Below, piece after piece: positions 26,993 to 33,511 of a stretch of DNA of 44,751 nucleotides. Location of the stretch: the IMG/VR virus record IMGVR_UViG_3300012683_000012, positions 1 to 44,751 of that record; one strand, 5' to 3'. This DNA is from a virus. Under the pieces are notes generated by a model, which did not search any database, was not told where the DNA came from, and saw only the letters and a list, made by a program, of their open reading frames with translations. The stretch's first letter is position 1; each line of letters opens with the position of its first letter. The position numbers were made by a program, and so were the translations under genes.

Positions 26993-28189
26993 TTACGGCT
27001 TCGCCCCGCCCTTCCATGTAAAGGCCACGATGCGCTCTTTATCACGCTCATAGCCAATATAGTTCGCGCGGACAGCGGCAAGCATCACGCCCTCGATCTG
27101 CTTCGGGTCGGCGAAGAAGGCATGGAGGTAGCGGTAAGCTTCCTCGTAGGACACGGTCTGTCGCCTTCGGATGAACTCTATGAAGCGATCCGCTTGGCGG
27201 GTCTCGGGCGTCTTCCCTACGAGGGCGAACACGCTGGGCATCTCGGCTTCGAGATCTGTTATCATCGTGTTCGCAGCCACCACATCACCAAGTTCTATCA
27301 CGAGGCTGTCTCTTTGGGCGGCTGATATTATCATAGCGAGCTTGTAGATGTGAGTTTGCTTGCGACTGATATAGCCGCCAAAGCGCTCGTCGGCCAAGCT
27401 CTGCCCGCCGTTGAAGTGCTTTGCGTACCATTCTTTGTTCCATAGCTTGACCTCTGGGGTTACACTGAATTCGCCCGCGAGGACGGATATCCTCTCCAAG
27501 TCCTGGACGAGGAGGTCCGCCGTCTCCCGCATACCCGCGGGGACAGAGTCCGCGGGCCAGTCCACGAGCTTCTCTTTGCGCTCGGCATAGACGTAGAGGA
27601 TGCGGCTCGACAGCCCGCCCCCAATCATTCCCTCGGGGACATTCTCCTGAATCCAGGAGGGCGTGGTGCAAGCGATAAGGTTGAACCAAGCATTCTGCAC
27701 GACATCGTTCCCGCTCATCTTCGTGACCTTCTCGAAGAGCTCCCGCGAGTCGTACAGTGTGATAAGGTTTGTGACAAGCTGGCGATCGCGTGGGTCGAGG
27801 AGATTGCCGAGCTCCGTCGCACAGGAGGTTATAGCGGACATCGTGAGCCATTGGTCTCCGACTTGGAAGGACTCTGCTGAGGCGGCGAAGGAGGTGACGA
27901 GGGCTTGCCACGTTATGGCGTCCGGTCCGAACTTGATGCCCGGGACCCGTCGGAGGAGCTTGATCGCGAGGTCAGCCGTGGTGGACTTCGAGACAATGGC
28001 GGGCGGCGCGACGAGCAAGACGAAGAGATTGGGATACCATTGGAAGGCATACTGTTCGATCCATACCTTCCGTCGCAGGGCGCCCGCAACGGCCACCGCC
28101 CCGCTGAAGAAGTGCATCCGACGGGGGGCCTCGGTGAAGGAGGCATAATCGACGTATGCCTGTAACCAATCGCTGAAATTTCGCGTCAA
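26993..28189 (-). CDS. DUF3987-like helicase/primase-type protein
   Basis: This protein of about 398 residues starts at TTG 28189, with GGGGAG 7 bases upstream and a TTGA overlap with the polymerase stop. It shows a loop like a Walker A (APPAIVSKSTT), an ELGNLLDPRDRQLV segment, LYDSRELFEKVTKMSGNDVV and 'NLIACTTPSWIQENVPEGMI' followed by GGGLSSR. These phrases are typical of the DUF3987 proteins that take the helicase or primase place in phage replication modules. The lysine/serine loop lacks a standard GxxGxGK, so ATPase activity is inferred. Confidence 0.65.
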   Translation of the reverse strand: MTRNFSDWLQAYVDYASFTEAPRRMHFFSGAVAVAGALRRKVWIEQYAFQWYPNLFVLLVAPPAIVSKSTTADLAIKLLRRVPGIKFGPDAITWQALVTSFAASAESFQVGDQWLTMSAITSCATELGNLLDPRDRQLVTNLITLYDSRELFEKVTKMSGNDVVQNAWFNLIACTTPSWIQENVPEGMIGGGLSSRILYVYAERKEKLVDWPADSVPAGMRETADLLVQDLERISVLAGEFSVTPEVKLWNKEWYAKHFNGGQSLADERFGGYISRKQTHIYKLAMIISAAQRDSLVIELGDVVAANTMITDLEAEMPSVFALVGKTPETRQADRFIEFIRRRQTVSYEEAYRYLHAFFADPKQIEGVMLAAVRANYIGYERDKERIVAFTWKGGAKP

Positions 28190-29526
28190 TGGCAGTCTCC
28201 CCAAGAGACGGGCGACGTTTTGATGGAGATGGGGATAACTAGCGGGTCAGGGTAGGGGACGGTTATAAGCGATAGTTCATTAATCCTCGGCAACAATCGT
28301 GTCGTGTCCGCTGTCTTGAACTGCCCGCCAAGCGAATCGTGAACTTGGAGAAGGACCTGGACTTCGGGTAGCTGTTCGCACAGGTTAACCCACGCCCGAT
28401 TTATAACGCAGGCGACCGTAGACTGGGGAATCCAGGCAGCGGCGTTGCCGAGGATCGTATCATGTCGATCAAAGTAGAAGCGCTTGTATCCAAAGGCATT
28501 CGACACGCAGGGGATCTTTCCAACGCCTAACTGTGTCTTGACTCGAGCGTGCCAGCGAGGGATACCTGGGTGTGCACCAAACCAGTTATCTATAAAACGT
28601 TGGGCTTCTTGGAGCGTTGTGCCAAGCGTTGCGGAGACTGTCTTAGCGGTGCCGGTGTTATCGAGCGCATGGACGATGCGCTTGGCATAATCCCGTTTCC
28701 CGCCGATCCTGGCGCGATGCTCCTTATAGTTAGCGTGGGTCTCGGTGAGCTCCTCGGGCGGAATCCCCTTGATCTGGTATAGGTCACACGCGGTAAAACA
28801 GTGAATGTCTATACCTTTATGCAACGCGAGCTTAAGCTCCTTGTCATCTGCCTCCCAGACCACGACATAGAACTCCGCCCGATCGAGGTCTTCCTCAAAG
28901 AAGGTATATCCCTCGTCGGGCACGAACATACGCTTGACGTTCGGAAGGGTCTCTCCACGTTCGAGGGCCTTGATCAGGGAGCGAGAGCCCGGGTGGGGGA
29001 TATATTGGAGATTCATCCCGACGCCAAAGGCATTCTCGCTTGAACTGAAGCGGTATGTCTCCGTCCCACATATATTGAAGGACGACCCCATTCGACCCTC
29101 CTCATCGAGTCTGGCCTCCATGAAGTTATCTCGGAACGTTGCAAGGCTACGCCAGTGGAGGATCTTGTGGCATAGAGGCTTGAGGAGCGGCTCGCGCTTC
29201 GCGATGGTGTCGAGGGCCTCGTCGTCAGTGGTGGGGCGGGGTGGCTGACCCGGCTTCGCCCGCGTGAGCACGACCTTCTGGGCGAGGTCGGTATAGAAAA
29301 GGGTAAGCATCTGCTTGGGGGAGCGAAGGTTTATCGTATGGCCGAGGACCGTTTCGATCCAGACCTTAGTTGTATCCATCGCGGCGTCGAGCTCTTGGGT
29401 TATGTCAGCCTTGGCGGTCGGATCAATCTTTATCCCGAGTTGCATCGCCCGAAGCGCCGCCCAAAACAGCCTCTGCTGAAAGGCGTTTTGCTCCTCCAAG
29501 CCCATCGAGCTAAGGACGGACACCAA
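28186..29526 (-). CDS. polA: DNA polymerase I-type polymerase domain (family A)
   Basis: This 446-residue protein carries the palm and fingers of a family A DNA polymerase. Motif A is FFEEDLDRAEFYVVVW (Asp 213), motif B RDYAKRIVHALDNTGTAKT (278-296) and motif C LLQVHDSLGG (His 396, Asp 397). In motif B the usual Tyr-Gly is replaced by Asn-Thr-Gly. The exonuclease half is in the upstream gene, which this one overlaps by 17 bases in another frame. The start is a TTG at 29526 lying 3 bases after GGAGG, or an internal ATG at residue 8. It is coupled to the next gene by TTGA. Confidence 0.9.
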   Translation of the reverse strand: MVSVLSSMGLEEQNAFQQRLFWAALRAMQLGIKIDPTAKADITQELDAAMDTTKVWIETVLGHTINLRSPKQMLTLFYTDLAQKVVLTRAKPGQPPRPTTDDEALDTIAKREPLLKPLCHKILHWRSLATFRDNFMEARLDEEGRMGSSFNICGTETYRFSSSENAFGVGMNLQYIPHPGSRSLIKALERGETLPNVKRMFVPDEGYTFFEEDLDRAEFYVVVWEADDKELKLALHKGIDIHCFTACDLYQIKGIPPEELTETHANYKEHRARIGGKRDYAKRIVHALDNTGTAKTVSATLGTTLQEAQRFIDNWFGAHPGIPRWHARVKTQLGVGKIPCVSNAFGYKRFYFDRHDTILGNAAAWIPQSTVACVINRAWVNLCEQLPEVQVLLQVHDSLGGQFKTADTTRLLPRINELSLITVPYPDPLVIPISIKTSPVSWGDCH

Positions 29527-31486
29527 GGACCTCCGCGCATTCCATTGTTCGGACTGCGTCCTCGCAGTTATGGACTACGACACCATTGGCTATGAAAGTT
29601 CCAGCAGTAGTAGTTATATCATAGACTGTGTCTATCCCTTCCGGTGCGATCTTTGTTACCTTTGTTCTTTCAAGCTGAGCGAACCCACTCCAGCCGTGCT
29701 GGATTGCTCCTTTTATGAAGTTGAGCATTAAGCGCTTTGTAGGAAACATTCCTAAAACGCGTAGATATTCACGGAGTCCCCCCTTGAAATCTACATATTC
29801 GGCGTTGGCTTTAGAAGCTTGATTTACCTTGAAACCATATTTTAGCAGGATTCGTTTTCCTTCTTCGAGGACGGCGCCTTCCTTTTGGGAGAAGGAGATT
29901 CGCGCGAAGTGATGATCTCCTTTGTAAGAAGCTCCGATTGTTCCTTCTCCGTCTAGAAGTCCAGCCATCCAACCACCTTCGAAGTGATTAACTACTTCCC
30001 AAGGCCTCCCTACAGAGAGAACTAGGTCGCCTACTTGAAGTTGCTGAAGTTGTTTCCAACCAGAGCCTTTCCACTTTCCACCAATAATGGTCTGGACAAA
30101 GACTTTATGGTCGGGCGTCCCTCGAAGGAACTCACCATTTTCTAAAGAGACACGGATAACTGTAGCCTGTCTGAAGACTTTGTTTGTAACGATCGCAGCC
30201 CGAAGCTTCCTTGAATATCGTGTCCCGGTTTGTTCCTCATCAAAGGCGAGAACTGGCTCTCCAACTGCTAGTTGATCCAGCCTTGTCCATTGGGAGAGAC
30301 CGTTTAACACTAGTGTTTCCCCTGTAAGGCAGTTATAGCGCCAGAACTGTTCTTCGCCAATGGCGGGGTCCCACTCCTTGGAATCGTCCTTCCAGTAGAT
30401 ATAGTGCTCGTTGTAGAGGCTGGCTTGGAAGTCGAGCGATTTCTTGAACCCGCCCTGATGCTTCTTGGTGCCCTTCTTGTGTTTGGCGAGGGAGGTATCG
30501 TCGGGACCCGCGGCAGCGGCGAAGGCGGTGTGGTGGGCGATCATCGTGTCGAACGTCACCCTCGGGACGAAGTGCCAGTGCCTCCAGGTGTACTGGCAGT
30601 CGTAGAGGAGGTTCTGGCCAAGCACTCGGGCGTTAGAATGGGAAAGAACTTTGTGCAACATGGACAAGACCATCGCTTCCTTTTCTGGAGGCCAATAACC
30701 TTCGGGTTGCCCGACTGCCATAAAGGGGATGCAGATTGCATTCTCCTTATCCCACGCAATGCCAGCACAAGCGATTTGACCAGCTCTTGTTTCGAGGTCG
30801 AATGAGAGGAGGGTTGGGCCTTGCGAGCACCGCGCATAAAGAGCTCCTAGCGTTCCTAGTGCTTGGATGATGGAGGGTCGAATAATGAATGTCCAGTCAG
30901 GAAGTCTGTATATCGAAGATGTAGACTCGCGCTTAGCTCTGCGGAGGTCATTGAGCGCGACTGCCCGCCAGTCCCACTGTCTAAGGATAGCTGCCGGATG
31001 ATACGTCGGAATGACTTTAACAGGCGGATTCGGGACCGCGTCCGTAAGGTCCGCTGCATTCTGGACAAGCTGTGAGCCCCGCCACTTCGTAATACCCCAA
31101 CGGCCCGTAAGCGCCCAGAGCGGCGTGTTCCCCAACGCAAGGATAAGGGTAGGTTTGACAAGAGCGATCTCCTTTAAGAGGGAATGATAGCCCGCGAGGA
31201 GGATGGGTTTGACCATCCGGTCGCGCAGGCGAACACAATCAGGCGTTATCTCTTTCTTCGTTAGCGGTATCCACGCTCGGATGTCGTTGCCCGCGGGCTG
31301 CGCGTTGACGACATTGGAGACATAGCACTCCGACCTCATGATCCCGACCTCATGGAGCATCCTGTCGAGCTCCATCCCGCTCATCCCAACGAAGGGCTTG
31401 CCCGCCCGCGCTTCGTCCGCGCCCCAAGCCTCTCCCACGATAAAGATTCTGGCGTTCGGGTTGCCGCCCCCGATAGGGAGAGTCAT
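29510..31486 (-). CDS. Uracil-DNA glycosylase / 3'-5' exonuclease with an intein
   Basis: The precursor is 658 residues. Residues 1-185 form a family 4 or SPO1-type uracil-DNA glycosylase domain: GEAWGADEARAGKPFVGMSG (motif A) and PTYHPAAILR (motif B). Residues 220-385 plus 641-658 form a DnaQ-like proofreading exonuclease: SFDLET (Asp 230, Glu 232), NLLYDCQYT (Asp 296), and ExoIII Y-N-C-E-D (Tyr 384, Asp 643). An intein (386-640) interrupts ExoIII. After splicing the product would be 403 residues. The stop lies inside the polymerase gene. This is the N-terminal half of a polymerase that is one chain in phages such as SPO1. Confidence 0.9.
   Translation of the reverse strand: MTLPIGGGNPNARIFIVGEAWGADEARAGKPFVGMSGMELDRMLHEVGIMRSECYVSNVVNAQPAGNDIRAWIPLTKKEITPDCVRLRDRMVKPILLAGYHSLLKEIALVKPTLILALGNTPLWALTGRWGITKWRGSQLVQNAADLTDAVPNPPVKVIPTYHPAAILRQWDWRAVALNDLRRAKRESTSSIYRLPDWTFIIRPSIIQALGTLGALYARCSQGPTLLSFDLETRAGQIACAGIAWDKENAICIPFMAVGQPEGYWPPEKEAMVLSMLHKVLSHSNARVLGQNLLYDCQYTWRHWHFVPRVTFDTMIAHHTAFAAAAGPDDTSLAKHKKGTKKHQGGFKKSLDFQASLYNEHYIYWKDDSKEWDPAIGEEQFWRYNCLTGETLVLNGLSQWTRLDQLAVGEPVLAFDEEQTGTRYSRKLRAAIVTNKVFRQATVIRVSLENGEFLRGTPDHKVFVQTIIGGKWKGSGWKQLQQLQVGDLVLSVGRPWEVVNHFEGGWMAGLLDGEGTIGASYKGDHHFARISFSQKEGAVLEEGKRILLKYGFKVNQASKANAEYVDFKGGLREYLRVLGMFPTKRLMLNFIKGAIQHGWSGFAQLERTKVTKIAPEGIDTVYDITTTAGTFIANGVVVHNCEDAVRTMECAEVLGVRP
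29567..30331 (-). mobile_element. Intein with LAGLIDADG homing endonuclease
   Basis: This 255-residue in-frame insertion runs from Cys 386 to Asn 640 of the host protein. Splicing motifs: N-terminal CLTGETLVLNG (Cys1), block B GTPDHKVFV (Thr and His), block F VYDITTTAGTFIANG, and C-terminal VVVHN followed by Cys of the C-extein. A LAGLIDADG-type motif, GWMAGLLDGEGTIG, lies at residues 505-518; a second copy is not evident. Its DNA is richer in A and T than the flanks, as expected for recent arrival. Confidence 0.93.
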
Positions 31487-32001: not shown

Positions 32002-32165
32002 GCGGTCATCACGATCCTGCCCTCCCCGCTTGGGGGCTTGTGCATCTCGCGGACTTGGCTTAAGGGTATCCACATTTCCTCCTGTTGGATTTCGATGAGA
32101 ACGGCCTTCTCGGACTCCCTCAAGAAGGTGCAGACAGCTTGGTATGTTGGTTCGTCGTGGGTCAT
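31971..32165 (-). CDS. Small protein, unknown function
   Basis: This 64-residue protein starts at an ATGA overlap with the ParB-methyltransferase stop. Its sequence (MTHDEPTYQAVCTFLRESEK, AVLIEIQQEEMWIPLSQVRE, then MHKPPSGEGR) looks like a small beta barrel or OB-like fold. Such proteins recur in phage replication modules. No motif is recognised. Confidence 0.65.
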   Translation of the reverse strand: MTHDEPTYQAVCTFLRESEKAVLIEIQQEEMWIPLSQVREMHKPPSGEGRIVMTAWIAKQKHLI

Positions 32166-33511
32166 TTCAGCGCTTGGAGCCGGGCCGCTGCGATACCGGC
32201 GTAGATAGGGTCGAGCTCGATGCCGGTGGCGCGACAGAGGGCGTTATGCGCTGCAACAAAGATCGTCCCTGTTCCCGCAAAAGGATCGAGTACGCTGTCA
32301 CCTGGCCGGACGGACCTCTTAAGTAGATTCTCAAATAGTGCGACGGGCTTCTGGGCGCCATGAGATAAATTAACATCTCCTCTCGTTTCGATAACGTCAG
32401 AATAAATCCTCGTAACTTTACGCCAGCCTTTGATTGCATATAGAACGAGCTCCCATTTCCGTTGGGGACCATGCTCGGGTAGCGGGACCCGCGAGCCATC
32501 GAGCTTATAGTTGATAAGCGGCGTCCTGTGCACATACCACCCGAAGGACTCCATGAGGTTGCTCAGGAAGTGAAACTTGTCGATGTCGCAACAGACGTAG
32601 GCGTGGGCTTGATCCTTAGCGACGCGCCAGCTCTGGCGGACGAACTCGCACATCAACGTTTCCCAAGCCTCCCCGCCCACATCATCATACCCATGCGTCT
32701 GCGAGACCAACCTCCCGCCCGCATCACCGAAATCCTGAGCGTCGATCCCGTAGGGCGGGTCGGTGAGAATGACATCGAACTGTGCCCCCGCCATCCCCGC
32801 CATGAGGGCGATGCAATCACCCTGAAGGAGGGTATGGTCCCGAGCCGAAAACGATGCCCCCACGACCCTCGCCATTTCAGCATGTCGCGCAGCATCCGCC
32901 TTCCGTCGGAGAATGCCAATGGCCTCGTCCACATGCTTTGCCTTCGCAACATCAGGGTCACTGAGGTGCGGCGCCACAAGGAGTCGGATGGCATACTGAG
33001 CGTCTCCGGAGGAGTCCTTCATGCCCGCCCGCTTGGGGGCGAGGTAGTCGTCTGCGAGGTCGGAGATCGCGGGCGCAGGTCGCCCCTCCGCTTTGGCGAG
33101 GTCATTCTCGACTTGGGTTATCTCTGCGATGGCTGCGGTCTCCTCCTGCCAAGAGAGGTTATCTCGGCGGAGATTCTCTTCGAGCTCGGCCCTTCGGGCG
33201 GGGAGAGGCTTGAGCTCCGTGTCGAGGGTGGCGGGGATTTGGCCTGGGTCGAGCGCCCGCCCCTCGTATCGCACAGCCTCTCCAAACTCATTCATGTCGC
33301 GCACGGCCCGGAGCCTGCGCTCCCCCGAAACGAGCACCCACCCTTGGGAGCTTAGCGGGGCCTCCTCCGCTGTCGGGAGCCGTACAACAATGGGATTTTG
33401 CAAGCCGACCTTTCCGATGGAGGACTGCAAGCCCTGCAACCTTTCTGGATCGAACTCTCTGCGCTGCCGGTTTGGCAGGATTATGATTCTTGCGATGTCG
33501 ATAATTTGCAT
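32162..33511 (-). CDS. ParB-like domain fused to a DNA methyltransferase
   Basis: This is a 449-residue fusion. Residues 1-130 form a ParB/Srx-like domain, with VSGERRLRAV at 61-70. Residues 225-449 form a Rossmann methyltransferase with motif IV DPPYG (251-255) before the SAM-binding motif DPFAGTGT (409-416), the beta-class order; HGAQKPV (384-390) fits the conserved 'QKP' region. DPPY supports N6-adenine or N4-cytosine methylation. It is first after a likely terminator (33524-33541), so it may have its own promoter. No cognate restriction enzyme is seen; protecting phage DNA is a reasonable role. Confidence 0.85.
   Translation of the reverse strand: MQIIDIARIIILPNRQRREFDPERLQGLQSSIGKVGLQNPIVVRLPTAEEAPLSSQGWVLVSGERRLRAVRDMNEFGEAVRYEGRALDPGQIPATLDTELKPLPARRAELEENLRRDNLSWQEETAAIAEITQVENDLAKAEGRPAPAISDLADDYLAPKRAGMKDSSGDAQYAIRLLVAPHLSDPDVAKAKHVDEAIGILRRKADAARHAEMARVVGASFSARDHTLLQGDCIALMAGMAGAQFDVILTDPPYGIDAQDFGDAGGRLVSQTHGYDDVGGEAWETLMCEFVRQSWRVAKDQAHAYVCCDIDKFHFLSNLMESFGWYVHRTPLINYKLDGSRVPLPEHGPQRKWELVLYAIKGWRKVTRIYSDVIETRGDVNLSHGAQKPVALFENLLKRSVRPGDSVLDPFAGTGTIFVAAHNALCRATGIELDPIYAGIAAARLQALK

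Follow-up and report, generated by a model that had tools for sequence, protein, structure and literature searches.

A class-1 intein with a single-motif LAGLIDADG unit at the ExoIII motif of a tailed-phage proofreading exonuclease

How can a phage proofreading exonuclease work when its catalytic motif is divided by a long in-frame insertion? The question is raised by a 658-residue ORF (31486..29510, minus strand) in an IMG/VR virus record of tailed-phage type (IMGVR_UViG_3300012683_000012; 44,751 bases), the whole of which was analysed and is termed the window below. The terminase, portal, primase-like and methyltransferase genes of the window mark it as a tailed phage.

The divided ExoIII motif and the anatomy of the insert

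The ORF begins with a UDG-family-4-like domain (residues 5-186; 30929..31474, minus strand), recovered by Pfam UDG at 6.6e-23 and by TIGR00758 at 5.6e-26, the latter with a score below the curated cutoff. It is followed by a DnaQ-like 3'-5' exonuclease domain, whose N-extein part (about residues 224-385; 30332..30817, minus strand) ends in FWRYN; here the match to Pfam DNA_pol_A_exo1 (3.9e-4) lies below the gathering score, and the assignment is also based on alignment to about 85 relatives with the UDG-exonuclease-polymerase architecture. Within this region (window 30332-31486, minus strand) exonuclease residues ~324-346 form a 22-residue insertion, approximately AAAGPDDTSLAKHKKGTKKHQGG, which is common to the window and its relatives L002 and L003 and missing from more distant aligned homologues. 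At residue 386 the reading frame enters an insert of 255 residues (29567..30331, minus strand), which separates Asn from Cys in the family-A ExoIII motif (YxxxD), here Y-N-C-E-D. The whole reads EEQFWRYN-(CLTGETLV...TPDH...WMAGLLDGEGTI...YDITTTAGTFIANGVVVHN)-CEDAVRTMECAEVLGVRP, with the insert in parentheses. The C-extein CEDAVRTMECAEVLGVRP (29510..29566, minus strand; 18 codons and the stop) holds the Asp of the ExoIII motif, and the same peptide occurs in L002 and L003. As the polymerase is encoded by a separate downstream ORF, the host of the insert comprises only the UDG and exonuclease domains and the C-extein is confined to 18 residues; removal of the 255 codons leaves a predicted product of 403 residues.

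The first-pass annotation had read this insert as an intein from the letters alone, with its position between Asn and Cys and a set of splicing residues (Cys1, a TPDH block B, a terminal His-Asn and Cys at +1). The ORF reading confirmed the placement, the coordinates proved exact, and all of these residues are present. Profile searches of the kind it had called for recovered Pfam Intein_splicing at 2.8e-10, above the gathering score, together with Hint (4e-6) and LAGLIDADG_3 (3.4e-4), and TIGR01443 (intein_Cterm) matched the full ORF at 6e-5, above its curated cutoff; against the intein itself, LAGLIDADG_3, Hint and TIGR01445 score modestly, slightly under their curated cutoffs. The insert can be divided as follows: 1) an N-terminal Hint segment (residues 1-107; 30011..30331, minus strand; TIGR01445 9e-5 and the structural model), with block A containing Cys1 and block B containing T72-P73-D74-H75; 2) a central endonuclease unit; and 3) a C-terminal Hint segment (residues 217-255; 29567..29683, minus strand; TIGR01443), with block F VYDITTTAGTFIANG and block G VVVHN. 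The class-1 set of residues is complete (Cys1, T72..H75, D238, H254, N255 and Cys+1), and in the family alignment H75 is invariant while position 72 is mostly Thr or Ser. A class 3 intein is ruled out by the nucleophilic Cys at position 1.

An AlphaFold model built from a 10-sequence alignment (pLDDT 87.8, pTM 0.84) predicts a Hint fold that encloses one complete single-motif LAGLIDADG unit. Its fold matches in the PDB are endonuclease-bearing inteins (7qsu, 7qst, PI-PfuI) and mini-inteins, and a PDB search with the intein sequence gave no significant match. Neither a group I intron nor any other Rfam RNA was detected in the window, L006, L007 or L014. Thus, as read from sequence and model, the insert is confirmed as a complete class-1 intein. 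With the ExoIII Asp displaced by 255 residues, it is a sound inference that the exonuclease cannot be active without splicing.

A single-motif endonuclease and its relatives

The endonuclease unit spans residues 117-212 (29696..29983, minus strand; models and Pfam LAGLIDADG_3), and its LAGLIDADG motif WMAGLLDGEGTI occupies residues 121-132 (29936..29971, minus strand). It is modelled as helix-strand-strand-helix-strand-strand-helix-helix, and when modelled alone (pLDDT 87.2) it retrieved LAGLIDADG enzymes, including I-CreI and I-MsoI, at E-values near 1e-3 in a fold search. These two enzymes are homodimers that, like the unit in the window, have one motif per chain; in contrast to it they are intron-encoded, free-standing and not nested in an intein, and both sequence identity (low) and TM-scores (modest) to the window unit set them apart. 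Across an aligned set of ten viral inteins the residues G124, D127-G130, Q149, R200 and L201 are invariant, of which E129, the acidic, presumably metal-binding residue at the motif end, and Q149 are of catalytic type; we take them, by analogy, to be the counterparts of I-CreI D20 and Q47. A two-motif intein of the PI-SceI type was rejected, as the block E motif is absent from the sequence, the model and the family alignment. A clear pseudo-palindrome, which a homodimer might favour as its target, was not seen at the insertion site, where the best self-symmetry is 8 of 11 pairs, a level reached by chance in about 5% of cases.

A profile scan recovered nine further full-length viral inteins with the same layout (237-270 residues), and a single motif is the norm for this family of inteins of 240-275 residues, all aligned members having just one. 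The family further includes inteins in the portal proteins of Gordonia phages (Neoevie gp8 and others), which are 27-29% identical to that of the window over their full length and share its single-motif layout, but differ from it in their host protein and in having Thr at +1. It also includes the Pham3880-g inteins in terminase-like proteins of C1 mycobacteriophages (LinStu gp250 was compared), which show full-length homology and a single motif, though they are only ~23-25% identical to the window intein and occupy another gene and site; one of these, from ScottMcG (gp245), undergoes splicing in E. coli, where part of the precursor persists (PMC5050341). The top viral fold match of the intein model, A0A411CH48 (1007 residues, TMq 0.85), has the length of LinStu gp250, the terminase-like protein with the homologous intein. 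Only distant members were found in the plasmid collection, and four distant ones in the genome collection. The host genes, as far as readable, encode viral portal or portal-like proteins, terminases, polymerases and ParB-like proteins. The ParB-like-looking genes are those of L025 and L022; in the window itself a ParB-N domain fused to an N6/N4 DNA methyltransferase (32162-33511, minus strand) is intein-free.

The first-pass annotation had left it undecided whether a unit with one visible motif acts as a dimer or is degenerate. The evidence largely decides for an intact single-motif domain, because the motif, E129 and Q149 are invariant in ten viral inteins and the modelled unit is complete; the degenerate alternative is unlikely, and we infer that the endonuclease acts as a homodimer. 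A related proposal is that the intein can still splice but is en route to a mini-intein, its motif being the remnant of a two-motif enzyme, as other phage inteins such as those of the BAKA and Bethlehem TerL proteins carry LAGLIDADG enzymes with two motifs (PMC5050341). We regard this as unlikely, because one motif is the rule throughout the family, D127-G128-E129-G130 and Q149 do not vary, and conservation is about equal in the endonuclease and splicing parts (56.7% and 58.4% identity, respectively) in comparison with a second intein at the same site, described below. The intact, mobile element thus remains the preferred reading. More tentatively, and as something that may or may not prove general, compact single-motif inteins forming homodimers could represent a broad, phage-centred family that has repeatedly targeted catalytic motifs of replication and packaging genes, with ExoIII as one homing site; homing would then need two excised inteins to pair. 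As part of the same tentative reading, the family seems to have been little described as such.

Inteins favour conserved catalytic sites (PMC2814812), and family-A polymerases of phages offer parallels within the same gene family, with catalytic motifs invaded in L072, L100, L021, L023 and Klebsiella phage ZCKP1. However, the sites of these inteins fall within the polymerase domain (O-helix region, motif A) rather than in ExoIII, and some of the inteins are unrelated to that of the window. The ZCKP1 "polymerase/exonuclease" intein was considered as an ExoIII precedent and rejected, since it sits in polymerase motif A. L023 (IMGVR_UViG_3300043395_003089) has two inteins in one UDG-exonuclease-polymerase ORF: one interrupts the UDG domain, and the other, in the polymerase domain, belongs to the single-motif family. 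In L072 and L100 in-frame inserts of ~300 residues in the O-helix region of the polymerase ORF start with C(I/L)T and end in VTGN/TNY (the slash marking the junction); they are unrelated inteins with Gly replacing the penultimate His. A search of open-access papers turned up neither an ExoIII-site intein nor a description of single-motif inteins as a family.

Empty sites and a second allele in a distant phage

Two close intein-free relatives, L003 and L002 (88% and 84% identity), align with all 403 of 403 spliced residues without a gap, which is the ungapped junction that the first-pass annotation had suggested looking for, and FWRYNCEDAVRT runs uninterrupted across it in both. The site is likewise empty and ungapped in L028 (78% extein identity). 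A profile scan for the UDG-exonuclease part gave 80 loci, and an insert at the ExoIII site is absent from all of the ~85 relatives inspected; the Cys required at +1 is present in 69 of 85 relatives with a readable motif, the motif being left unread in six loci (two duplicate contigs, the rest truncated or split).

A degenerate DNA scan combining W-x-Y-N-C with the intein start returned a single contig, L111 (IMGVR_UViG_3300037524_000944). Its unannotated intein, of 257 residues, occupies the same site to the residue (YN/C...VVVHN/CED), in the same exonuclease domain as that of the window, although in L111 the first half of the polymerase is joined to the exonuclease. The two inteins are 56.9% identical while their N-exteins are 44.8% identical. 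In the extein tree the window clusters with L002, L003 and L028 (support 100) and L111 is placed elsewhere; forcing both intein carriers into one host clade is rejected (p-AU 1.2e-8). Inheritance along with a shared host gene being rejected by this test, we conclude from the sequence comparisons that the element has spread horizontally to the same site in the two phages, probably by homing. Between the two inteins dN is 0.39 and dS ~2.8, and the ratio, in which dS is saturated, points to purifying selection. A profile scan of IMG/VR with both alleles gave no third one besides the window and L111, peptide patterns found no close intein relatives there, and scans for His-Asn-Cys preceding the ExoIII Asp matched L111 alone among exonucleases, the other matches being different genes or noise.

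Base composition sets the insert apart as well. Its GC content of 0.467 is the lowest of all 765-nt stretches in the window (mean 0.599, sd 0.031), bearing out the earlier remark that it is AT-richer than its surroundings, and its GC3 is 0.412 against 0.56-0.86 for the other long ORFs; in both inteins GC3 is ~0.41-0.42, compared with 0.69 and 0.78 in their N-exteins. The recent transfer proposed on the basis of this composition gains support from the empty sites in sister phages and from the same-site intein in a distant phage.

These distributions bear on three further explanations. The intein might be retained mainly for regulation and not as a selfish element, holding proofreading back until splicing has taken place; conditional splicing is known for other inteins, and only the UDG-exonuclease chain would be blocked since the polymerase is on a separate ORF. 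Yet sister phages with 78-88% extein identity lack it, and its patchy presence (2 of ~87) and foreign base composition are what one would expect of a mobile element, making such a role improbable. Ancient vertical inheritance with many independent precise losses could account for one site being occupied in two distant phages, and counts of changes on the tree do not by themselves separate gain from loss; we nevertheless consider it quite improbable, as it requires the element to have been lost precisely many times among ~85 intein-free relatives, and the similarity between the inteins exceeds that between their hosts, from which both also differ in being AT-rich. Finally, although the Hint fold is also found in some non-splicing proteins, a stably inserted Hint-like domain that does not splice is hardly credible here, given that every splicing residue including Cys+1 is present, that the active-site motif is divided exactly and that empty homologues are ungapped.

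Predicted course of splicing and homing, and the neighbouring polymerase gene

We therefore read the insert as a mobile class-1 intein carrying its own homing endonuclease, with a probability of about 0.9, splicing, dimerisation, cutting and homing being its presumed activities. Upon translation of the 658-residue precursor, Cys1 would attack the peptide bond of Asn(-1), the N-extein would be transferred to Cys(+1), and Asn255, aided by His254, would cyclise, leaving the exteins ligated as a 403-residue UDG-exonuclease with Y-N-C-E-D restored. The single-motif domain probably dimerises and would cut the ExoIII codons in co-infecting phages that lack the intein, after which recombination would copy the intein into them. 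Since the DNA at the site codes for a catalytic motif, it is not easily mutated by the phage, nor can the insert be lost imprecisely.

The polymerase ORF (28186..29526, minus strand; Pfam DNA_pol_A 1.5e-31) lies in the +1 frame relative to the exonuclease ORF, which it overlaps and which ends in LGVRP 18 codons past the intein. This split is common to the window, L002, L003 and L028, while most relatives have a single UDG-exonuclease-polymerase ORF. At the break (window 29510-29526) the sequence reads CGT CCT TAG C at the exonuclease stop, with GTG in the overlapping +1 frame; one inserted base would explain it. A polymerase start at the GTG at 29523, behind GGAGG at 29534-29530, is plausible; alternatively, a +1 frameshift at CCT-TAG-C would yield an exonuclease-polymerase fusion of matching length. 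With either arrangement an intein left unspliced would be expected to inactivate the exonuclease, as its ExoIII Asp is displaced, but not necessarily the polymerase.

Other breaks occur in these genes. In L033, L036 and L056 an earlier stop ends the exonuclease ORF, so that the ExoIII motif sits on the next, polymerase ORF. A break at a single recurrent position interrupts the family-A polymerase gene of L007, L014, L050, L064, L078, L081, L088, L091, L094, L099, L103, L106 and L111: the first half terminates in NLQN-IPKG(D/N)EE or a similar sequence, and the second begins anew ahead of (L/M)PNxRKMFIPDPG, a position just upstream of motif A and close to the intron site of the SPO1 polymerase. 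In L091, L103 and L111 the second start overlaps the first half or follows it closely, and at the other extreme almost 2 kb containing unrelated ORFs, such as a ThyX-like one in L007, lies between the halves; no intein sequence was seen at the ends of this break, and Rfam found no intron in L007 or L014.

While this kind of element is already known, the allele is new and so, to judge from the open-access literature, is the site, adding the ExoIII motif of a proofreading exonuclease to intein insertion sites and explaining, for annotation, a phage exonuclease that looks broken though it probably is not. The compact family with its half-sized endonucleases could serve as a source of small splicing or meganuclease scaffolds, and the empty and occupied alleles, together with the distant allele at the same site, constitute a natural experiment for measuring homing between phages.
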